From positions 1 to 33,072 of IMG/VR virus record IMGVR_UViG_3300012920_000135: a stretch of DNA of 33,072 nt. One strand, given 5' to 3'. The notes beneath the pieces are model-generated. The model worked only from the letters and a program-made list of their open reading frames with translations. It was not told where the DNA came from and ran no database searches. This DNA is from a virus. Position numbers and translations under genes: made by a program. The first letter of the stretch is position 1; each line of letters begins with the position of its first letter. This document shows, piece by piece, positions 1 to 22,661 of this stretch.

Positions 1-228
1 CCTCCAACAGCAACTTTTACTTTAACAGGTAATCCAGTCATATTTGGTTTTGACATTGACGCAGATGTTGGAACTTTTGCGTTAACTGGAAACAGTGCAA
101 CTCTTCGTCATGGAAGAATTTTATCTGTAGATAGTGCATCACAATTTACTTATGCATTTCAAGAATTTAAAGTTAGAGGTTGGTTTAGTCCAACAGTGCC
201 ACCAGCAATATGGACGGAAGCAGCTTAA
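1..228 (+). CDS. Repeat-containing virion protein, C-terminal fragment
   Basis: Open from the first base in frame 1 to a TAA at 226-228; the start lies outside the window. The 75 visible residues hold short repeats of about 20 residues built on an F-[TA]-L-T-G-N core (ATFTLTGNP, then GTFALTGNS), then a tail rich in aromatic residues (KVRGWFSPT, IWTEAA). I know such FTLTG-type beta repeats from marine phage structural proteins encoded next to fibers, so a tail or fiber-associated role is inferred from family resemblance and from the fiber gene 30 bp downstream. The frame would also stay open if the last base of the window were joined to the first, but the truncated gene at the other end looks like a different family. 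Confidence 0.6.
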   Translation, partial: PPTATFTLTGNPVIFGFDIDADVGTFALTGNSATLRHGRILSVDSASQFTYAFQEFKVRGWFSPTVPPAIWTEAA

Positions 229-258
229 CGTGGTACTATTATTAAATAGGAGATTTTA

Positions 259-1101
259 ATGGCTATTACTATTACAAAACCAACTGTTGGCGGTAGTGAA
301 GGAACGTGGGGTCAAACCATAAATGATGCACTTGATGTTATTGTAGACGCTGCAAATGGTACAACAGGAACACTTGCGCCTGATTTAACAAAGCTTACGA
401 TTAATGGCACAGACGTTACCTCTACGGCTTCAGATATAGTGCTGCAATCAGACCTGTCTGCTTTAATGACAAGTTTTCAGCTAGAAGATGGTGATGGTAC
501 TGAAGTTACTATTTCAAATGGTAAAGAGGTAAAATTCGTTGAAGGAACTGGCATAGATATAAACTGGACTGATACATCTACTGGTTCAGACGGTGATCCT
601 TACGATTTAACTTTTTCTCTTAAAGAAGATTTACGGTCTACAAGCAACGTGGATGCTTATACTGGCAATAATAGTGATTATGTTCACTATGATGCAGATG
701 TTGGGATGCGTTTTTACACTGCTGGTAACGAAGATATGAGGTTAACTGATGGCGGTGATTTGCACGTTGACGCAAACATTATTGGGTACTCAACAACAAT
801 TTCAGATCAAAGACTAAAGCACGATATTAATAAAATTGATAACGCATTAGATAAAGTTTCTCAAATAAATGGCTATACATTTACTTACAATGAAAATGGA
901 AAACTTAGTGCAGGGGTTGTGGCACAAGAAATTGAAAATGTTTTACCTTCTGCGGTAGAAAACAAAAAATTAGCTTTTAGCGGTCAAGAAGATGTTGAAT
1001 ATAAAACAGTACAATACGATCAGCTTCATGGACTTTTGATAGAAGCCATAAAAGAACTAAAGGCTGAAATAGAGGAACTTAAAAATGGCATTGCCAAGTA
1101 G
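259..1101 (+). CDS. Tail fiber with C-terminal S74 intramolecular chaperone
   Basis: 280 residues. The N-terminus (ITKPTVGGSEGTWGQTINDALD) is a common attachment end in phage fibers; the middle is a beta-rich shaft. From about residue 180 it is a peptidase S74 (endosialidase-type) chaperone domain: the motif ISDQRLKHDI supplies the expected Ser182/Lys187 pair, followed by GYTFTY and GVVAQEIENVLPSAV, and it ends in the usual helix (LIEAIKELKAEIEELK). In this family the chaperone drives fiber trimerisation and then cuts itself off just before the Ser, here leaving about 181 residues in the mature fiber. Start ATG 259 follows TAGGAG. The 3' end overlaps the next gene by 17 bp. Host-receptor specificity cannot be read from the sequence. 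Confidence 0.88.
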   Translation: MAITITKPTVGGSEGTWGQTINDALDVIVDAANGTTGTLAPDLTKLTINGTDVTSTASDIVLQSDLSALMTSFQLEDGDGTEVTISNGKEVKFVEGTGIDINWTDTSTGSDGDPYDLTFSLKEDLRSTSNVDAYTGNNSDYVHYDADVGMRFYTAGNEDMRLTDGGDLHVDANIIGYSTTISDQRLKHDINKIDNALDKVSQINGYTFTYNENGKLSAGVVAQEIENVLPSAVENKKLAFSGQEDVEYKTVQYDQLHGLLIEAIKELKAEIEELKNGIAK

Positions 1102-1915
1102 TGGTCAAATAACAATAAATCAAATCCACGTTGAGGCAGGGGGGTCTAGTGGTTCTGAAGCAACAATAAATGATGGTGATATTCGATCTTTGATTGGTAA
1201 AGATAGTGCAGTGCAAAACGCATTTAATGAATATTATGGTTCTGCTTCAACTTCCCCTACCGCAAACTATATAGGAAGATTAACAACAACAAATGACGGT
1301 TTTCCAAGCTCACCAAATGCTGGTTATATTACACTTAGCTCTGATTACATTAATAATACTTATTATCCAAAAACAAAGTTGGTTGTAATATGCACCCAAT
1401 TAGCTGGGACAGCTACACCTCTTAATTCAACGTGCAGTATACAAGGTCAATTTGGAAACACTTCGGTTCAAAGTATGACTTTAGCAGTTAGGCAAAATAC
1501 CCCTCATCAAACCGCAATATATTATTTAGAAACAAACGCATCAGGTCAAACACTTGTACTTGGGCAAGGGGGAACTGGTAGATCATCTTTAGATGTATAT
1601 GAGCTTTACGATTATGGAAGCACAACACCTTACACAACAGATACAGCATCAAATAGTAATTCAAACAGCCAAACTATTACTGTTAATAGTAATTATAATG
1701 GCGTAACTATTGGTTGCGGAATGTCATCGTTTGGTGGAACAAATACAACAACTGTATCTAATGCTGACGCAGTGCAACAAATTCAATTAGAGAGTGCAAC
1801 AGCACATTTTTCTTGGAAAGATGAAGGTACGCCATCAGGAAACAGAAGTTATGCTGCTTCCACTTCTGGAGCTTCATCTACTGGAGTAGACTTATGTACA
1901 GCATCGTGGAAATAA
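1085..1915 (+). CDS. Putative tail tip or fiber protein (MALPSSGQI type)
   Basis: 276 residues. The opening MALPSSGQITINQIHVEAGG and the following ATINDGDIRSLIG are the typical start of a marine phage structural family in which this short N-terminal module is joined to variable beta-rich receptor domains. The rest is rich in Ser, Thr, Asn and Gly with few charged residues, like exposed fiber domains. The start ATG lies inside the end of the S74 fiber gene, preceded by GAGG, so the two are probably translationally coupled. No enzymatic motif is visible. Structural role is inferred from the N-terminal pattern and position between a fiber and the tail stabilisation protein. Confidence 0.65.
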   Translation: MALPSSGQITINQIHVEAGGSSGSEATINDGDIRSLIGKDSAVQNAFNEYYGSASTSPTANYIGRLTTTNDGFPSSPNAGYITLSSDYINNTYYPKTKLVVICTQLAGTATPLNSTCSIQGQFGNTSVQSMTLAVRQNTPHQTAIYYLETNASGQTLVLGQGGTGRSSLDVYELYDYGSTTPYTTDTASNSNSNSQTITVNSNYNGVTIGCGMSSFGGTNTTTVSNADAVQQIQLESATAHFSWKDEGTPSGNRSYAASTSGASSTGVDLCTASWK

Positions 1916-1916
1916 T

Positions 1917-3743
1917 ATGCCTTTAGTACCATTAGATTTAAAAGCAGGATTTTACAGAAACGGCACTGATCTTGATGCTAGTAATAGATGGCGTGATGGT
2001 AGCCTTGTAAGATGGCGTGATGGCTCTTTGCGGCCAATAGGAGGATGGCAAGACTTCAAAAAGGGTTTTTGTACTAATCCAGTTAGAGGCGCACACGCTT
2101 GGGAAAGTAACAATGGTGATGCTTATTTTGCGGCTGGAAGCTACAATGAATTAACAGCAATGCTTGGTTCAGGAACAGTTTATGATATTACGCCTGTCAC
2201 AATGTCTACTGGCAGAGAAGATGCAGGAATTAATTTAGGTTTTGGTGGTGGTTTTTATGGCACTGGATATTTTGGTACGCCAAGACCATCAACGGGTACA
2301 TATTCAGAAGCAACATCGTGGTCACTTGATAACTTTGGTCAGTTTTTGGTTGGGGTTCATTATGATACAGGTACGCTTGTAGAATGGCAGCTTGGTTCTA
2401 GTGCCGTAGCTGCGCCTGTTTCAAATGCTCCTACAAACAATCTTGGCTTGGTTGTTACAGAAGAAAGATTTATATTTTTATTAGGCGCAGGTGGTAATCC
2501 CAGAAAGGTACAGTGGTGTGATAAAGAAGCAAACACCACTTGGACACCTGCGGCAACTAACGAAGCAGGTGATTTTACTTTGCAGACAAGTGGTCAAATA
2601 ATGCAGGGTTTAAATACCAGAGGTCAAACCTTAATTATTACAGATAGTGATGCTTTTGCTGCAAAATATCTTGGACCGCCTTATGTTTATGGTTTTAATC
2701 GTGTGGGAACGTCTTGCGGTGCAGTTTCGCGTATGTCAGCAGTTGATACTGATATGGGTGCTTTTTGGATGGGTCAAAAAGGTTTTTTTGGTTTTGATGG
2801 TAACACTGTTAAAGAGATACCTTGCGAAGTACATGATTATGTTTTTGACGATATAAATGTTAACCAACAATCTAAAATTTGGGCTTTTAGCAACACTGAG
2901 TTTAGTGAAGTTTGGTGGTTTTATCCATCGGCAGGTAGTTTAGAAATTGATAGATATGTAGCTCTTGATTTATTAGAAAATCATTGGTTAATTGGTAACT
3001 TATCAAGAACAGGCGGCGTATCTAGGGGTGTATTTAGAAGTTGTATTATGAGCGGTGAATACGTTGAAAATTTAACGTATAATGTAACTGTTGCAAACGA
3101 TAGTGGTAATAAATATTATATTTCTAGTTACTCTGGGTCTGCGCCAACAATAAGTTTTAGAAAAGGAAATACTTATCGGTTTGACCAATCAGATAGTAGT
3201 AATTCTTCGCACCCGTTTCAGTTTTCTACAACGTCAGATGGCACACATGGAGGTGGAAGCGCCTATACAACAGGTGTCACAGTAGTGGGAACGGCTGGAA
3301 CGGCTGGCAGTTATGTAGAGATAGCAGTTACAGACAGCACACCTTCAACGCTGTATTATTATTGTTCTAATCACGCAGGTATGGGGGGAACGATTAATAT
3401 TATAGAGCCAGTAATAGTTTATAACCATGAACAAGGTTTAAATTATGAAAATGGATCAATTTTTTGTGAGACTGGACCTATCTCAATAGGTAGTGGTGAT
3501 CAGGTTGCAAAAGTAACTGACGTAATACCAGACGAAAAAACACAAGGCGATGTTGATTTAAAATTTAAAACACGATTTTACCCAAACGACACAGAAACAA
3601 CACATGGACCATTTAACCCAAGTAATCCTACTTCAGTAAGGTTTACTGGAAGACAGTTGAGGATGAGAGTTGAAGGTGATCAGCCTACTGCTTGGCGTGT
3701 TGGAACAATGCGGCTTGAAACAAAAGCAGGGGGTAGGCGATAA
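1917..3743 (+). CDS. gp10-like tail/DNA stabilisation protein with inserted cupredoxin-like domain
   Basis: 608 residues. The N-terminus (LDLKAGFYRNGTD, WRDGSLVRW, LRPIGGW) matches the P22 gp10-like stabilisation or nozzle family of podoviruses, which plugs the portal-tail channel as a beta-propeller-like hub. Residues about 382-496 do not belong to that fold. They read as a cupredoxin-like domain: TYRFDQSD, SSHPFQFS with His432, and a closing YYYCSNHAGMGG with Cys483, His486 and Met489. The C-x2-H-x2-M spacing equals that of the type-1 copper protein amicyanin. The parent fold appears to resume at VYNHEQGLNYENG. Start ATG is one base after the previous stop, and the end overlaps the next gene by TAATG. 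The tail role is well supported by pattern; copper binding is inference. Confidence 0.75.
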   Translation: MPLVPLDLKAGFYRNGTDLDASNRWRDGSLVRWRDGSLRPIGGWQDFKKGFCTNPVRGAHAWESNNGDAYFAAGSYNELTAMLGSGTVYDITPVTMSTGREDAGINLGFGGGFYGTGYFGTPRPSTGTYSEATSWSLDNFGQFLVGVHYDTGTLVEWQLGSSAVAAPVSNAPTNNLGLVVTEERFIFLLGAGGNPRKVQWCDKEANTTWTPAATNEAGDFTLQTSGQIMQGLNTRGQTLIITDSDAFAAKYLGPPYVYGFNRVGTSCGAVSRMSAVDTDMGAFWMGQKGFFGFDGNTVKEIPCEVHDYVFDDINVNQQSKIWAFSNTEFSEVWWFYPSAGSLEIDRYVALDLLENHWLIGNLSRTGGVSRGVFRSCIMSGEYVENLTYNVTVANDSGNKYYISSYSGSAPTISFRKGNTYRFDQSDSSNSSHPFQFSTTSDGTHGGGSAYTTGVTVVGTAGTAGSYVEIAVTDSTPSTLYYYCSNHAGMGGTINIIEPVIVYNHEQGLNYENGSIFCETGPISIGSGDQVAKVTDVIPDEKTQGDVDLKFKTRFYPNDTETTHGPFNPSNPTSVRFTGRQLRMRVEGDQPTAWRVGTMRLETKAGGRR

Positions 3744-4090
3744 TGCCAGTCACGCCACCAGTCATAGGAACAGATATACGTCAATGGGGTAGAGAGCTTA
3801 ACCTTTTTCTAAGCAGAAATTTAGGAAAGTTATTCTTTAAATCATCGGGTGATACTCCTGCGGATAATGGTATTTTCTTGTGGGATGATGAGAATAATTA
3901 TCCTGTAGTTTCCTCAGACGGTGTTTTTAGACAGGTTGCCATGAAGCAAGCCACGCCAAGTAGTAGCACTGGTGCGGCTGGTGATGTGGCAGGCATGATA
4001 GCTTGGGATACTAATTATATTTATATTTGTACGGCTGCACATGATGGCTCAACAGCAATTTGGAAGAGGGTAGCATTGTCTACATATTAA
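3743..4090 (+). CDS. Small virion-associated protein
   Basis: 115 residues, overlapping the previous stop as TAATG. The N-terminal half (IRQWGRELNLFLSRNLGKLFFK) is helical. The C-terminal half (GDVAGMIAWDTNYIYICTAA, IWKRVAL) is a short beta motif that I recognise from many phage fiber and neck proteins, where it occurs as a generic module. No enzymatic residues are evident. Its place between the tail stabilisation protein and the GNAT-like protein suggests a minor structural or assembly component. Confidence 0.6.
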   Translation: MPVTPPVIGTDIRQWGRELNLFLSRNLGKLFFKSSGDTPADNGIFLWDDENNYPVVSSDGVFRQVAMKQATPSSSTGAAGDVAGMIAWDTNYIYICTAAHDGSTAIWKRVALSTY

Positions 4091-4477
4091 ATGCCTAAAG
4101 ATACAATACTATCAGATGATTTAGAAAAATGCCGCCCTTGGATTGAGGCGGCTTTGGATTATACAGGCGGTACACATGCTTGGGAAGATATAGTAAATAG
4201 CATAGCTTCTGGGACAATGCAGTTATGGGCCGCTGACAGGGGGTGTATTGTGACTGAAATTGTGGTATATCCTAGAAAGAAAGTTTTAAATATTTTTTTA
4301 GCTGGCGGCGAATTGGATCAAATACTAGATATGGATCACGACGTAAAAAGATGGGCAAAAGAGCATGGCTGTACAGCGGCTACAATGATGGGTCGCATGG
4401 GATGGAAAAAACCGTTGGCAGCATTGGATTGGAAGCTGCAACACGGATGTTTTTTAAAGGAGTTTAATGATGGCTAA
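4091..4477 (+). CDS. GNAT-like acyltransferase-fold phage protein
   Basis: 128 residues, starting directly after the previous TAA. The order helix (DLEKCRPWIEAAL), beta pair (MQLWAADRGCIVTEIVVYP, VLNIFLAGG), then the helical ILDMDHDVKRWAKEHGCTAATMMGRMGWKKPL resembles a compact GNAT-fold protein found in the structural operons of many podoviruses. The usual acetyl-CoA loop Q/RxxGxG/A is not clear here, so catalysis is doubtful and a structural or assembly role is equally possible. The family call rests on pattern and context only. Confidence 0.55.
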   Translation: MPKDTILSDDLEKCRPWIEAALDYTGGTHAWEDIVNSIASGTMQLWAADRGCIVTEIVVYPRKKVLNIFLAGGELDQILDMDHDVKRWAKEHGCTAATMMGRMGWKKPLAALDWKLQHGCFLKEFNDG

Positions 4478-4907
4478 AGGTGGTAGAGAAAGTACAGATC
4501 AAACATTGCCTAAATTTTTTGAAACTGCTCTTCAGCAAGGAGTAGGAATGGGCACAGATTTGGCAGCAATGCCTTATGCGGAGTATAGGGGGCCAGATGT
4601 AGCAGCTTTTTCTCCGATGCAGCAAGCGTCATTTCAAAACACTCAAGATGCAGCGGCTGCATTTGGAATGAACTCAGGCGCAGGATCTTACATGCCTACA
4701 CCCGTTCAAGATGGTGGTATAATAGGATATTCGGCAGCGCCATTGTACGATGCTGCAAAAGCAAATTTAGAGGCAAGCTCCCCAGCAACGGCTGATTACA
4801 TAGCAAGCTTTGGAATAGATCCAGTTACTGGCGAAATGGGTGTTAGAGCCCCAGATAGTCAGCCAGTAGCGTTAGAAATGCAATCAAGAGGAAGAAGGGG
4901 TAAATAA
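4470..4907 (+). CDS. Putative internal virion protein (small)
   Basis: 145 residues from ATG 4470. AAAGGAG at 4456-4462 favours this ATG (spacing 7) over the ATG at 4467 (spacing 4). The protein is Ala/Met/Gln-rich and contains YAEYRGPDVAAFSPMQQASFQNTQDAAAAFGM, a pattern I associate with small ejection or internal virion proteins of marine podoviruses. The C-terminus is basic (SRGRRGK). It overlaps the preceding gene slightly and sits one base before the next, which shares the same composition. Function beyond virion association is unknown. Confidence 0.6.
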   Translation: MAKGGRESTDQTLPKFFETALQQGVGMGTDLAAMPYAEYRGPDVAAFSPMQQASFQNTQDAAAAFGMNSGAGSYMPTPVQDGGIIGYSAAPLYDAAKANLEASSPATADYIASFGIDPVTGEMGVRAPDSQPVALEMQSRGRRGK

Positions 4908-4908
4908 T

Positions 4909-5541
4909 ATGGCTGGCAGTGCAAATCCTTCAATGGTTCAACCAGTAATGAACCCATATCAGAGAGCATCGAGCGCAAACATGCAAGCGTTCAGCACATA
5001 CTCAAATCCAGCGGCTGCGGCTGCTAATATGATGAACCCGTATCAACAACAAGTGGTTGACGCCACAATTCGTGACGTAGGTAATGCGGCGCAAGTGGGG
5101 CTAAACCAAATAGGCGCACAAGCGCAAGGCGCAGGGGCTTTCGGTGGTTCTAGGCAAGGTATTGCAGAAGCTGAAGCACTCAAGGGCTTTAATCAGCAAG
5201 CTTTAGATCAAGTAGCAAGATTAAATCAACAGGGCTACCAGCAATCGATAAACAACGCATTCACCGCAGCATCAGGACTGCAAAATGTTGGTAATCAAGC
5301 TTTTGCAATGGGTAACACTTTAGCTGACAGGCAAATGCAGCAAGGACAAATGCAACAGGCAGCAATGCAAAACTTGATAAATTCTGGCAAACAACAATTT
5401 GCAGGATATACAGGTCAACCTCAGCAAAATCTAAATGCTCTGTTGTCTACAATCTCAGCGCAACCTAATTTAGCTGGCGAAACTAAGAGCTTCCAGCCAG
5501 GATTGTTTAACTATCTACAGTTTGCGGCTGGTCTAGCCTAA
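4909..5541 (+). CDS. Putative DNA ejection / internal virion protein, Gln-Ala-rich
   Basis: 210 residues, very rich in Gln, Ala, Asn and Met, with almost no acidic clusters. Motifs NPYQQQVVDATIRD and GAGAFGGSRQGIAEAEA are typical of internal virion proteins encoded beside the transglycosylase in this kind of genome. Repeating QQ/QA helices (RQMQQGQMQQAAMQN) suggest an amphipathic assembly that could line a conduit through the cell envelope. Located between another small internal protein and the SLT protein, consistent with a three-protein ejection set. Exact role is inferred. Confidence 0.65.
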   Translation: MAGSANPSMVQPVMNPYQRASSANMQAFSTYSNPAAAAANMMNPYQQQVVDATIRDVGNAAQVGLNQIGAQAQGAGAFGGSRQGIAEAEALKGFNQQALDQVARLNQQGYQQSINNAFTAASGLQNVGNQAFAMGNTLADRQMQQGQMQQAAMQNLINSGKQQFAGYTGQPQQNLNALLSTISAQPNLAGETKSFQPGLFNYLQFAAGLA

Positions 5542-5542
5542 G

Positions 5543-7018
5543 ATGCATAATCGCGCACATATAATGCAGATGGCTGCACAAATTGCGCGGAATGAGGGCA
5601 TCGATGAGGATTTATTTTTATCTCTCATACAGCAAGAAAGTAATTTCAATCCAGACGCTGTTAGCTCAAAAGGGGCTATAGGTTTATCTCAGTTGATGCC
5701 AGAAACAGCCAAAGAGCTTGGCGTCAATCCAAACAATATGATTGAAAACTTAACGGGTGGTGCGCGATATTTAAAACAACAGCTAGACGCATTCCCTAGC
5801 AGAGAACTAGCGCTGGCTGCATACAACGCTGGGCCAACAAGAGTAAGAGATTTAGGTGCAATACCTGACATACCAGAAACGCAAAATTTTGTTAAAAATA
5901 TTCTTGCACGAATGCAAAACACAAACAAACAAATGCCGCTAAATGCGACAGGATTACTAGCTCAAGATCAAACAGACGGGAATAAGCCAATGTCACGAAA
6001 CTATAATTTTTTAGATTATCTTATGGGCAACGCACGTCAACAGCCAAACAATACAACTCCAAGAATGTCCCCGTTACGAAGGGCTGGAATAGCGGCTGAT
6101 GCTTTAATTTTGCGAGGTTATGGACAAGGCCAACAGCTTCGTGAGCAAGGAATGGAACAGTTAGCACTAGAGAAGCAGACAAGGGATAGAAACGATACAA
6201 TTAAAATGTTCGAACAAAGGGCAGCGGCTGGTGATACCGTAGCATCTCAAATATTGCAGGGATTGCGAAGCGGTTCTCTAACGGTCAAAGATGCAATGAG
6301 CTTGTATTACGGGCAGATGTTTAAAAAGGATGATAGTACCTCGTTTATGAAAAACTATAAATACCTAACTGAAGAATTGAAGATGGCTCCCGAAGAGGCT
6401 CTTGCACAAGCTGGTAAGGTTACAGGCAGTAATACAAATATTGATATGGGTGGCTCTGGCGATCAGGATAAGTTTGCTGAGTTAGATGCCAAAAAACTAA
6501 ACGATGTAGGCGCAATCGGTTTAGATGCTGGTGGAACTTTAGCAAGAATTAATAGGCTAGAAGGTTTGCTGCAAAATATTGATACTGGTTTGGGTACTTC
6601 TATAAAAGCGTTTGCTGGACGTTTTGGAATACAAACAGAAGGACTTTCAAATATACAGGCCGCTGAAGCTTTAATTAACAGTTTGGTTCCCATGCAGCGT
6701 CCAGCAGGGTCTGGCCCCATGTCTGACGCAGACTTGGCACTATTTCAGAGGTCGTTACCTTCATTAATTAATAGTCCACAAGGTAACCAGCTTATTATAG
6801 ATACGATGCGTGGAATAGCAGAGTATGATAGGCAGGGAGCGGATATTGTGCAAAGGTATAGAAGCGGAGAGATTACAGTTGCTCAAGCTTTCGGTGAACT
6901 AAACGCTAGATCAGACCCATTGGGTTGGTTAGATAAATCTGGAGCTACTGGTGAGGGCAACCAAGAAGTTTCAACCTTCACAACAGAAAATGGCTTAACA
7001 TTCGAGATAATCAAATGA
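5543..7018 (+). CDS. Internal virion protein with lytic transglycosylase (SLT) domain
   Basis: 491 residues. Residues about 15-120 form a GH23 soluble lytic transglycosylase domain. Catalytic Glu32 lies in LIQQESNFNPDAVSSKGAIG, followed by LSQLMPETAKELG, the glycan-binding GGARYLKQQL, and LALAAYNAGPTRV. Such domains cut the peptidoglycan beta-1,4 link so the ejection apparatus can cross the wall. The remaining about 370 residues are mostly helical and lack a known enzyme motif, as in large ejection proteins. ATG 5543 lies one base after the previous stop but has no good ribosome site, so translational coupling or a start at a nearby ATG is possible. The stop overlaps the next gene as ATGA. 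Confidence 0.88.
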   Translation: MHNRAHIMQMAAQIARNEGIDEDLFLSLIQQESNFNPDAVSSKGAIGLSQLMPETAKELGVNPNNMIENLTGGARYLKQQLDAFPSRELALAAYNAGPTRVRDLGAIPDIPETQNFVKNILARMQNTNKQMPLNATGLLAQDQTDGNKPMSRNYNFLDYLMGNARQQPNNTTPRMSPLRRAGIAADALILRGYGQGQQLREQGMEQLALEKQTRDRNDTIKMFEQRAAAGDTVASQILQGLRSGSLTVKDAMSLYYGQMFKKDDSTSFMKNYKYLTEELKMAPEEALAQAGKVTGSNTNIDMGGSGDQDKFAELDAKKLNDVGAIGLDAGGTLARINRLEGLLQNIDTGLGTSIKAFAGRFGIQTEGLSNIQAAEALINSLVPMQRPAGSGPMSDADLALFQRSLPSLINSPQGNQLIIDTMRGIAEYDRQGADIVQRYRSGEITVAQAFGELNARSDPLGWLDKSGATGEGNQEVSTFTTENGLTFEIIK

Positions 7019-15593: not shown

Positions 15594-15967
15594 TAGATAA
15601 GCTGATAGAACCTGTAAGTGGCTTACTTGGGAAGGTAATACAGGACAAAGATCAAGCTGCTAAACTAGCTCACGAGGTGGCTACGATGGCAGATCGCCAT
15701 TCTCAGGAGCTTGCCCTCGCACAGTTAGAAATACTTAAAGCTGACGCCAAGGGCAACTGGTTCCAGTCGTCGTGGCGTCCACTCATCGGATGGCTGGGTG
15801 GAATAGGGTTAGGTGTGAATTACATTGTGAGCCCAATATGCGCTGGTTTTGGGGTAATTATTCCGCAAGCCGATATGTCAGTTATGATGCCTCTTTTATT
15901 AGGAATGCTTGGCATGGCTGGCGCTAGATCATTCGACAAACTAAAAGGAACGGATAGTAAAAAATGA
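15590..15967 (+). CDS. Holin, 3-TM family (Holin_3TMs-like)
   Basis: 125 residues from a TTG start inside TTGA, where the upstream stop overlaps; GGGAG at 15575-15579 supports it. An amphipathic first 50 residues (KLAHEVATMADRHSQELALAQLEILKADA) precede SSWRPLIGWLGG, the signature Trp-Arg-Pro of the 3-TM holin family. Hydrophobic segments (WLGGIGLGVNYIVSPICAGFG; MMPLLLGMLGMAGARSF) follow. Holins form inner-membrane lesions that release the endolysin. The amidase gene downstream overlaps by ATGA, giving a clear holin-endolysin pair. Confidence 0.8.
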   Translation: MIDKLIEPVSGLLGKVIQDKDQAAKLAHEVATMADRHSQELALAQLEILKADAKGNWFQSSWRPLIGWLGGIGLGVNYIVSPICAGFGVIIPQADMSVMMPLLLGMLGMAGARSFDKLKGTDSKK

Positions 15968-16392
15968 GAGAAATAGACGAAATAATTATTCACGCTACGG
16001 CAACAAACCCTAGTTGGATGGCAGACAAACCTGTTGAGGATGTTGTCGCAGAAATCAGGCGCTGGCACGTCGAGGAAAGAAAATGGAGCGACGTGGGGTA
16101 TCATGCTATTATTCATAGAGATGGATCTGTTGGTTACGGACGGCCTGTAGAGCGTACAGGAGCCCACGTAGGGGGCCGAAACAAGACAACCATAGGTGTA
16201 AGTCTAGTTGGTGGTAGAGGTGGAATTGCTGATGGCGATTTCAGCGACAACTTTACTCCAGAACAAGAAGCATCTTTACGTCAGTTAATCGAGGATTATA
16301 AAAAACAATTTCCAAGCATTACCAAAGTGTCTGGACACAATGAGTATGCTTCAAAAGCTTGTCCTTGTTTTTCTGTTAAGGCTTGGCTATAG
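15964..16392 (+). CDS. N-acetylmuramoyl-L-alanine amidase endolysin (T7 lysozyme-like)
   Basis: 142 residues, an Amidase_2 domain slightly shorter than the 151 of T7 lysozyme. Zinc ligands His10 (IIIHATAT), His125 and Cys133 (GHNEYASKACPCF), plus Tyr46 in VGYHAII and Lys131, match T7 His17, His122, Cys130, Tyr46 and Lys128, with the same H-to-K-to-C spacing. The enzyme cuts the amide between MurNAc and L-Ala in peptidoglycan. It has no signal peptide, so it needs the upstream holin. No phage RNA polymerase is present for it to inhibit, unlike in T7. Last gene of the rightward late block. Confidence 0.92.
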   Translation: MREIDEIIIHATATNPSWMADKPVEDVVAEIRRWHVEERKWSDVGYHAIIHRDGSVGYGRPVERTGAHVGGRNKTTIGVSLVGGRGGIADGDFSDNFTPEQEASLRQLIEDYKKQFPSITKVSGHNEYASKACPCFSVKAWL

Positions 16393-16399
16393 AATATAA

Positions 16400-16468
16400 G
16401 TGACCAGAGTAGTTTCCTGTTTTCTCACACACAAACAGTCAAACCTGCTTTTTTGCTACTCTGGTCAC
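16400..16468. repeat. 13-bp perfect inverted repeat in the convergent junction
   Basis: GTGACCAGAGTAG (16400-16412) and CTACTCTGGTCAC (16456-16468) are exact inverted copies separated by 43 bp. They lie between the convergent ends of the late block and the leftward block. No T-tract follows either arm, so it is not an ordinary intrinsic terminator. It could form a long-loop RNA hairpin that protects or terminates the convergent transcripts, or be a paired protein-binding site next to the parS site 5 bp away. Confidence 0.6.
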
Positions 16469-16473
16469 ACGAA

Positions 16474-16489
16474 TGTTTCACGTGAAACA
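16474..16489. promoter_or_regulatory. Canonical parS site (host ParB-binding palindrome)
   Basis: TGTTTCACGTGAAACA is a perfect 16-bp palindrome identical to the consensus bacterial chromosomal parS, the loading site at which ParB binds and spreads as a CTP-dependent clamp. A perfect 16-mer is very unlikely by chance in 33 kb. It sits in the only non-coding junction between the convergent blocks, one base from the end of a small HTH gene. No ParA or ParB is encoded in the window, so the ligand would be host ParB. Identity is read from sequence; function is inferred. Confidence 0.8.
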
Positions 16490-16490
16490 A

Positions 16491-16736
16491 TTACGAAGCT
16501 TTTAATTCCTTCGATGTTTGATAGCCATTGACTAAGATATGATTTGTTCTCTGGCCCTGCTTAACGACACGCCAGTGGATCTTATACCTCTTAGCGTATG
16601 TGTTTAAGTGCGACAGGCTACAACCCAACTCACGGGCTGCTTCTGTCTGTGTCAGACCCTGTTCGTTTAGACGATCAATAGCCTGTATACGTTCCTTTTT
16701 ATGGCGTTCTACCATTTCATCCCAAGTCTCACTCAT
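16491..16736 (-). CDS. Small helix-turn-helix DNA-binding protein
   Basis: 81 residues. Residues about 15-50 (RIQAIDRLNEQGLTQTEAARELGCSLSHLNTYAKRY) form a clear HTH of the homeodomain-like or Fis-like type: Gly-Leu-Thr-Gln-Thr-Glu-Ala-Ala turn, then recognition helix. The C-terminus is short and basic. It is the last gene of the leftward cassette from P1, and its stop codon lies one base from the parS palindrome. Regulatory target unknown; binding in the adjacent junction is an attractive guess. The start overlaps the upstream stop (ATGAG/TAATATGA region). Confidence 0.75.
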   Translation of the reverse strand: MSETWDEMVERHKKERIQAIDRLNEQGLTQTEAARELGCSLSHLNTYAKRYKIHWRVVKQGQRTNHILVNGYQTSKELKAS

Positions 16737-17135: not shown

Positions 17136-18115
17136 TACGCCGTGTCCTTCTTTTTACGGGGTTGCCAATATTGTTTCTTAATGCCGAACATCGGATGACC
17201 AGCCCAGTAGCCGTCTATCCACATCCACCATAGAAAACGGTCCCGATAGTTTGGAGCCTGTAGCCTACGTTCAGCCCGTGGATTATCCTTATCGCACTTT
17301 CGCCAGTAACCACGTCTGTAATGATATGGCATTTTGTGGAATGTCTCGTCGTGCGGCGTTTTAGCTTTCACTGGTTTATCAATGTCCCAAGCTACTCTAT
17401 GCATGGCGTCCATTGCTGTACCCATTCCACGGTGTGCTAATTTTCGTTTGGTTCGATTTGCCGCTGGCACGAAAGTCACATGTCTTGGATTGTTCATTGT
17501 GGCTAACGCTGCCGCACATTGATAGGAAAGCTGATTGAAAAATATTTCTGAATGTCTTTCGTTGTCAGTAGGAGCTCTGTCTCTCCAATTGGAAATGTAT
17601 CTCCCGTCGGGTGAAAGAAAACACAATTGAGTTTCTGTTAATCCATGTGAACTAAGGCTGATACAAAAGACAACAAACTGACCATCTACGGGTGCGTTTT
17701 TTCTGTGGAATAAAACAAAAGCACTCCACCCATCTCCTTGGTGGTTCATTAAATCACTGTGTTCGGTAAACAATAATGTTGGCCTGTCAAACGGCATCCT
17801 AACGTCGTTAGAAACTTTGCCGTCAAATGTTTCTGGCAACATACCAAATTTTTCACTAACGAAACTGCTTTCCCGATCAATGTCAGGTTTGTAATTAAAC
17901 ATTGTAGGCGCAACATGTTTATAAGAAAAATCCCAAATATCTGACACATCAACCAAATGACAGTCAGATAGATTGAAGTGATAAATCTCTTTAACTTTGC
18001 CACGCTCCTGTAACGGCTCTGATACGTTCAGTACAAAACGCAATACGTTTTCTTTACTGCCAGTATCACGTGAACTGTGATTGTTCACTCTATTTACAAA
18101 ATCCATCATTTCCAT
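17135..18115 (-). CDS. Uncharacterised phage protein with C-terminal RRGYWRK motif
   Basis: 326 residues from ATG 18115. AGAAGGGAG lies 8 bases upstream, whereas the GTG at 18124 is only one base from it. The middle (WSAFVLFHRKNAPVDGQFVVFCISLSS) looks like a compact alpha/beta core. The end (KMPYHYRRGYWRKCDKD, WWMWIDGYWAGHPMFGIKKQYW) resembles the H-x-R-R/V-G-H/Y-W/F-R tail common in uncharacterised phage proteins, which closes with a Gly-His-Pro-x-Phe-Gly block. I do not know its function. Largest gene of the P1 cassette; being on the leftward side suggests early or host-takeover rather than virion use. Confidence 0.6.
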   Translation of the reverse strand: MEMMDFVNRVNNHSSRDTGSKENVLRFVLNVSEPLQERGKVKEIYHFNLSDCHLVDVSDIWDFSYKHVAPTMFNYKPDIDRESSFVSEKFGMLPETFDGKVSNDVRMPFDRPTLLFTEHSDLMNHQGDGWSAFVLFHRKNAPVDGQFVVFCISLSSHGLTETQLCFLSPDGRYISNWRDRAPTDNERHSEIFFNQLSYQCAAALATMNNPRHVTFVPAANRTKRKLAHRGMGTAMDAMHRVAWDIDKPVKAKTPHDETFHKMPYHYRRGYWRKCDKDNPRAERRLQAPNYRDRFLWWMWIDGYWAGHPMFGIKKQYWQPRKKKDTA

Positions 18116-21788: not shown

Positions 21789-21817
21789 AATATAGTATCA
21801 GATAAGATACTTGTCAA
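21789..21817 (-). promoter_or_regulatory. Promoter P5 with perfect operator
   Basis: Minus strand: TTGACA (21817-21812), 17 bp, TATATT (21794-21789). The perfect operator AGTATC-N6-GATACT lies at 21794-21811. The bases before the -35 (AACTA) differ from the AGGTG of P1-P3. Divergent from the rusA gene. Confidence 0.78.
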
Positions 21818-21918
21818 TAGTTGTTTACAAAAAAAGTAAAAAAACTTACGGTAAAAGAAATAACACTGACCCTGGGAGTAAGTCATTGAAAACATTGAAT
21901 AAAATTGAGGACGGTATT

Positions 21919-22359
21919 GTGCAGGAACTTAAAAAAGTTGAGATTGAGATCTCAGGTCAGCCTATTGGCAAGGGTAGGCCGCGATTTACGAGGGCTGGAC
22001 ACGTTTACACACCACCCAAGACAAAAGAGTACGAAAACCGCATACAGGCCGCTGCATGGGCCAAAATGCAAGAGCTCAAGTTTAAACCTACGGGAAAGTT
22101 TGTTCACCTCAAGCTCATAGCGTTTATGGACATTCCAAAGTCGTGGAATAAGATCAAAAGATTAGAGGCAGAATACGGTGTTCTCAAGCCAGTTTCTAAG
22201 CCTGATTTGGATAATATCTGTAAGATAGCCAAAGATGGGATCTCAGGAATGGACGGGATTATCTTGGACGACAAACAGGTAACCAGCATAGATGCACAAA
22301 AAGTTTTCTGTCACCCAGATAAGGGGCCGTTACTCTACATCTGCGTTACTTGGACGTAG
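21919..22359 (+). CDS. rusA: RusA-like Holliday junction resolvase
   Basis: 146 residues from GTG 21919 (GAGGA at 21907-21911, spacing 7). A TTG at 21886 with GGGAG upstream is an alternative start. Family blocks: ISGQPIGKGRPRFTR at the N-terminus, KPDLDNICKIAKDGISG with Asp96 and Asp98, and ILDDKQV with Asp117/118, matching the acidic metal-binding residues of E. coli RusA (Asp70, Asp72, Asp91). RusA cuts four-way junctions symmetrically and would resolve replication or recombination intermediates before packaging. It is the only rightward gene within the leftward half and overlaps the HNH gene tail-to-tail by 25 bp. Confidence 0.88.
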   Translation: MQELKKVEIEISGQPIGKGRPRFTRAGHVYTPPKTKEYENRIQAAAWAKMQELKFKPTGKFVHLKLIAFMDIPKSWNKIKRLEAEYGVLKPVSKPDLDNICKIAKDGISGMDGIILDDKQVTSIDAQKVFCHPDKGPLLYICVTWT

Positions 22360-22661
22360 CTCCAATCGGGCCCGTAGAGAGCTCTCCATTTAGCCTTATT
22401 ATTGTGTATTGCTACTTCCTGCGAGTTGTCCCATAGTGCTTGGTGATGTCCATCGCAGAGGGGCACAGCATCATAATCGCTGGTTTTGCGAGAGCCATAC
22501 CTGTCGTGTATACAATGGTGAGCGGTTGTTGGGCTCCTCTGTACCAGCCCAAATTTTTTGCAGACGCAGCATGGCATCTGTCTAATTAAGTCTAAGTGTT
22601 TTTTGTTTTTTTTTGGCTTCTCTGTTTTTTTGTATAATTTTTGTCCAGTTAAATTCGTCAT
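22335..22661 (-). CDS. HNH-type nuclease (DUF968-like)
   Basis: 108 residues. KHLDLIRQMPCCVC (Cys31/32, Cys34) matches the usual HL-x-IR-x-LPC-x-C start of phage DUF968-type HNH proteins. AHHCIH (His48, His49) gives the catalytic His pair, and PLCDGHHQALW (Cys69, His72, His73) completes the beta-beta-alpha metal site. ATG 22661 is preceded by GAGG at spacing 6-7; a later ATG at 22577 would remove the diagnostic N-terminus. It overlaps the upstream gene by 80 bp. Possible roles: recombination, DNA processing or host DNA attack. Confidence 0.75.
   Translation of the reverse strand: MTNLTGQKLYKKTEKPKKNKKHLDLIRQMPCCVCKKFGLVQRSPTTAHHCIHDRYGSRKTSDYDAVPLCDGHHQALWDNSQEVAIHNNKAKWRALYGPDWSYVQVTQM

Follow-up and report, generated by a model that had tools for sequence, protein, structure and literature searches.

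A perfect chromosomal-type parS site at a convergent gene junction of a marine phage, and stand-alone parS sites across unrelated phages

Our analysis of a 33,072-nt stretch of viral DNA (the window) identified one perfect parS palindrome of chromosomal type, TGTTTCACGTGAAACA, in a phage without recognisable partition genes (Table 1). The best explanation, to which we give even credence, is that the chromosomal ParB (Spo0J) of the host loads at this 16-mer, a functional site recently captured by the phage lineage. The palindrome matches exactly the parS consensus TGTTNCACGTGAAACA of bacterial chromosomal ParABS systems (PMC7022226), as the first-pass annotation of the window had proposed, and is the sole match in the window when up to three mismatches are allowed. 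Markov models of orders one to three, built on the window, give 1.5-1.9e-5 copies expected by chance (around 1.7e-5). Because the site is identical to the one recognised by ParB in many bacteria, host ParB would be expected to bind it. The phage differs from the chromosomal ParABS system (ParB/Spo0J-parS), whose 16-bp palindrome it shares, in that it holds the cis site alone and would rely on the host for ParA and ParB.

Table 1. Features at the parS junction of the window
Feature	Coordinates	Strand	Basis or remark
Amidase (endolysin), final gene of the rightward late operon	15964..16392	+	PF01510, phrog_822
Inverted repeat, left arm GTGACCAGAGTAG	16400..16413	+	Conserved, adjoins parS region
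Inverted repeat, right arm CTACTCTGGTCAC	16455..16468	+	Conserved; ends 5 bases before parS
parS, chromosomal-type perfect palindrome TGTTTCACGTGAAACA	16474..16489	.	Exact match and chance expectation
Small HTH_23 protein, 81 aa; stop codon 1 base from parS	16491..16736	-	PF13384 above cut-off

The site lies between the 3' ends of the amidase and HTH genes, and the spacing of a single base from the latter, reported at first sight, is correct. The junction had also been described as the only convergent one. It is the only one with intergenic space, because the members of a second convergent pair, RusA (21811-22359, +) and an open reading frame at 22335-22661 (-), overlap. The window site is thus intergenic, at a gene end and at a convergence of transcripts. 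It is accompanied by an inverted repeat of 13 bp (14 pairs if the G-T at its end is counted), whose loop is conserved in part and which is perhaps a bidirectional terminator or a small RNA; an Rfam search at the junction gave only matches at the level of chance. One pair of this repeat (16400-16468) has changed on both sides, and another is broken in two sequences.

The window encodes SU10-type portal and capsid proteins, the amidase, an O-like replication protein, RusA and NinB-like proteins, has a GC content of 42%, and belongs to a podovirus-like marine phage of SU10 type. The linear record probably lacks part of the genome: its relatives measure 36-38 kb, so that some kb of the tail region, roughly 3-8 kb, may be missing. 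Within this record, profile searches gave no match to ParB_N (PF02195), to the ParA-type AAA_31 (PF13614), to the tyrosine integrases (Phage_integrase, PF00589) or to the serine recombinases (Resolvase, PF00239), in agreement with the first description of a phage without Par or integrase genes. What we see is therefore neither a plasmid prophage with its own ParABS nor, as far as a record that may lack some kb can tell, an integrating temperate phage. Tyrosine integrases were also absent from 34 of the 35 related records tested. ParB_N matches occur in 6 of 27 relatives. In one of these (G005), the ParB_N domain of the protein (L234:14662-15939, 425 aa) is followed by a methyltransferase-like DPPY motif, which suggests a DNA methylase and does not support a role in partition; such a combination of ParB/Srx-like and DPPY methyltransferase-like domains is easily mistaken for a partition ParB. 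The ParB_N protein of a second relative has 176 aa and little outside the domain.

An alphaproteobacterial host is plausible, since most genome matches of the capsid are alphaproteobacterial MAGs. Most of the capsid relatives, with identities of about 30-42%, come from alphaproteobacterial MAGs and phages, and the cultured phages among them include Sinorhizobium phiM5 and Pelagibacter HTVC106P. A match of 83% is on a contig binned as Euryarchaeota, probably by misbinning. Seven of eight alphaproteobacterial genomes containing a capsid relative also contain TGTTTCACGTGAAACA.

A consensus parS in a phage without Par or integrase genes argues for dependence on the ParB of the host, and this earlier suggestion gains support at the level of the class of stand-alone parS sites in unrelated phages. 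At parS, ParB is loaded as a clamp in a CTP-dependent manner and connects the DNA with ParA and SMC. On reaching the palindrome, host ParB would bind and load onto the phage DNA as a sliding clamp of this kind, joining the molecule to host ParA, to SMC, or to both. Unintegrated phage DNA might then be positioned, or kept close to the origin or pole of the host, and in a stalled infection (a carrier state) it could be shared between daughter cells without Par genes of its own, as phi29 gives reason to think. The location of the site just after a stop codon, where two transcripts meet, would leave promoters clear of the ParB complex. Given the lack of integrase and Par genes, such positioning or sharing of unintegrated DNA in a stalled infection would be the simplest benefit to the phage. 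Plasmid prophages, such as P1 and those of mycobacteriophages (PMC7157519), would draw the same benefit, partition without integration, but encode their own Par proteins, none of which was found in the window phage.

The closest precedent that we identified is phi29, which has four copies of TGTTTCACGTGGAACA, each one mismatch away from parS, whereas shuffled palindromes have a mean of zero occurrences within two mismatches in the same genome. Like the window phage, phi29 combines stand-alone sites of host type with an absence of Par genes, and one of its sites (17243-17258) starts directly after the stop codon of gene 16 (17242), opposite gene 16.6 (17383-17547, -), in the convergent junction between late and early genes. 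Spo0J of the host reportedly binds these sites and helps phi29 genomes to become entrapped in the spore (Meijer et al. 2005, EMBO J). With this precedent, the window phage joins an already known type of phage-borne parS, with the difference that phi29 has four one-mismatch sites and a sporulating host, and the window phage a single perfect site in a marine SU10-type genome. In the phi29-like Chedec 11, an exact site (1587-1602) abuts the stop codon of the packaging gene in a convergent gap. The Ruegeria phages DSS3P8 and vB_RpoS-V10, whose host is alphaproteobacterial, resemble the window in having perfect sites and no ParB_N or AAA_31 match; they differ in size (about 147 kb), in belonging to an unrelated phage group, and in carrying three sites each near the genome ends, one of them at the identical place in both. 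Finally, an inovirus (L301, PQ006149.1, bajarodino virus 6) has six perfect sites in 5.9 kb, most of them at or just past gene ends; three begin within 0-2 nt of a preceding stop codon. Against our reading of the window site stand its absence from the relatives examined and its single copy, compared with several in phi29, DSS3P8 and the inovirus.

The first-pass annotation had raised the conservation of the site at the same junction in related phages, and this was not borne out. With up to two mismatches allowed, no parS was found in any of 44 related records or at 80 amidase loci. The site is also absent from the 35 HTH loci inspected (from 42 in a wider scan for the HTH gene) and from the homologous junctions of five different relatives (L124, L125 and its twin L127, L131, L132 and L173). 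All five junctions share the inverted repeat GTGACCAGAGTAG...CTACTCTGGTCAC, and most have the HTH gene, 58-62% identical to that of the window. At the position of parS, they carry different sequence, and their HTH protein lacks the last 17 residues, a C-terminal tail encoded in the window by 16494-16544 and identified by alignment. A motif scan showed the repeat to be confined to the phage group of the window (six IMG/VR contigs in addition to the window itself), and these six known contigs, the only ones recovered in the search for a relative with parS beside the repeat, are all without the site. Across all parS-bearing loci, the only protein similarity to the window was distant. Conservation within the group would be expected of a retained site, without strictly defining one; its absence in close relatives, which had been set in advance as evidence against the initial reading, rules out an ancestral, conserved element of the group. 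The window parS, being missing from related records and from homologous junctions, is, to judge from these comparisons, a recent and lineage-specific gain. This leaves room for a function, since stand-alone parS is strongly enriched and intergenic across unrelated phages and has the same placement in phi29.

The exact 16-mer occurs in 286 of 50,697 annotated phage records (about 0.6%; the Listeria and actinophage records among them are highly redundant), and three shuffled palindromes of matched composition had no match in the same records. At least 120 IMG/VR stretches contain it, against four with a control palindrome; these counts may include some host DNA, to which the data from phage isolates are less exposed. 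From the rates of the 16-mer and of the controls, we estimate that chance accounts for a few per cent of phage parS sites or less. Sixty-two IMG/VR stretches have GGTCAC within 30 bases of parS, from which one may roughly infer a total of thousands of sites in IMG/VR. Among the annotated phages, the hosts of the carriers include Listeria, Microbacterium, Arthrobacter, Gordonia, Lactobacillus, Bacillus and Enterococcus, together with Ruegeria, Vibrio, Clavibacter, Butyrivibrio, Glutamicibacter and Spiroplasma; uncultured microviruses and inoviruses also carry the exact site. No phage of Enterobacteriaceae was seen among the matches listed, and those of Pseudomonas, a host with ParB, were not prominent either. 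ParB_N exceeded the cut-off in three of 50 parS-bearing IMG/VR records (18 of the 50 matched the PHROG-2 terminase) and in none of eight annotated phage records bearing parS.

Placement was studied on 191 distinct sites from 180 IMG/VR loci and the window, with a simple self-trained gene finder. Of these, 123 (64%) were intergenic, whereas random positions are so in 13.4% of cases (p about 1e-59). Among the intergenic sites, convergent gaps were over-represented (33/123 versus 11.7%, p = 4e-6), and 21 of 95 sites lay within 3 nt of a gene 3' end (versus 5.4%).

The recruitment of ParB within the lytic cycle, for loading SMC/condensin, for compaction or placement of replicating DNA, or for protection from host DNA-processing or defence complexes, is the alternative that survives best, and we regard it as rather unlikely. 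It draws on the nature of the carriers: Listeria P100 and the phi29-like phages Chedec 11 and Athos are virulent or non-integrating, the inovirus and Spiroplasma phage 4 are carriers too, and tyrosine integrases are lacking in the window and nearly all related records tested. For the same reasons (many carriers virulent, others filamentous or with ssDNA), the partition of a plasmid prophage proposed at the outset is not specially favoured. On the other hand, SMC loading on phage DNA and its protection lack direct evidence, and the window has a single site in about 33 kb that its relatives do not conserve. Our data do not separate partition from a lytic-cycle role, and the virulent carriers make the latter possible as well.

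It might also be that the palindrome has no role and came in when a short sequence was inserted at a variable junction. The absence of the site from all relatives sampled fits this idea, with parS and the 17-residue HTH tail marking a short lineage-specific stretch, but the minute chance expectation in the window and the frequency of the 16-mer in phages, where control palindromes are nil, make it improbable. We consider slightly less probable still that ParB spreading regulates the HTH or amidase gene, or that ParB serves as a roadblock where the genes converge. In favour, two gene ends and a conserved inverted repeat adjoin the site, and in Pseudomonas aeruginosa ParB is reported to repress genes near parS (PMC7022226, PMC5521831); against this, the site lies at the 3' ends of the genes, distant from promoters, and parS is lacking in relatives that retain both the repeat and the HTH gene. 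A decoy that titrates ParB and thereby disturbs host chromosome segregation would profit from the many copies offered by a replicating phage, and some phages do have several sites, yet the window has just one and no anti-segregation gene was seen in it, which makes this very improbable. Least probable of all is an RNA hairpin or terminator for the convergent transcripts: the palindrome folds as a 6-bp hairpin beside the strong 14-pair stem, and phi29 has terminators at its corresponding parS-bearing convergent junction, but a T-run is missing after the palindrome and the enrichment is specific to the letters of parS itself, palindromes matched in composition and close in pairing strength being absent.

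The breadth of the class of stand-alone sites is the more interesting result; it appears to be little described in the literature that we searched, where we found no account of stand-alone parS across phages (preprints and subscription papers were outside its scope). Capture of the host centromere may be a general phage strategy, a proposal that we hold with a little less than even confidence. Sites would be gained and lost repeatedly in the phages of ParB-bearing hosts, whether tailed (including virulent), filamentous or with ssDNA, and phage DNA would be handled by host ParB, ParA and SMC; the window would then be one such case, recently acquired, from a Gram-negative marine lineage. Should borrowing of the host centromere prove widespread among phages, the proteins of host chromosome segregation would count as infection factors, and there would be a testable mechanism for carrier states or pseudolysogeny in integrase-free phages. 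Cultured carriers make direct experiments possible, including DSS3P8, Chedec 11, P100-like phages and the phages of Gordonia and Arthrobacter.

Some carriers stand out by their genomes. Spiroplasma phage 4 (L356) and further Microviridae records are small ssDNA microviruses of about 4-6 kb with a perfect parS. In the T5-like Vibrio phage phi 3 (L357, positions 1-6000), parS lies in the terminal repeat (exact at 2934, one mismatch at 821), which by analogy with T5 is expected to be the first DNA to enter the cell. Two uncultured viral contigs (L016 and L043) each have five parS sites clustered in about 1 kb.
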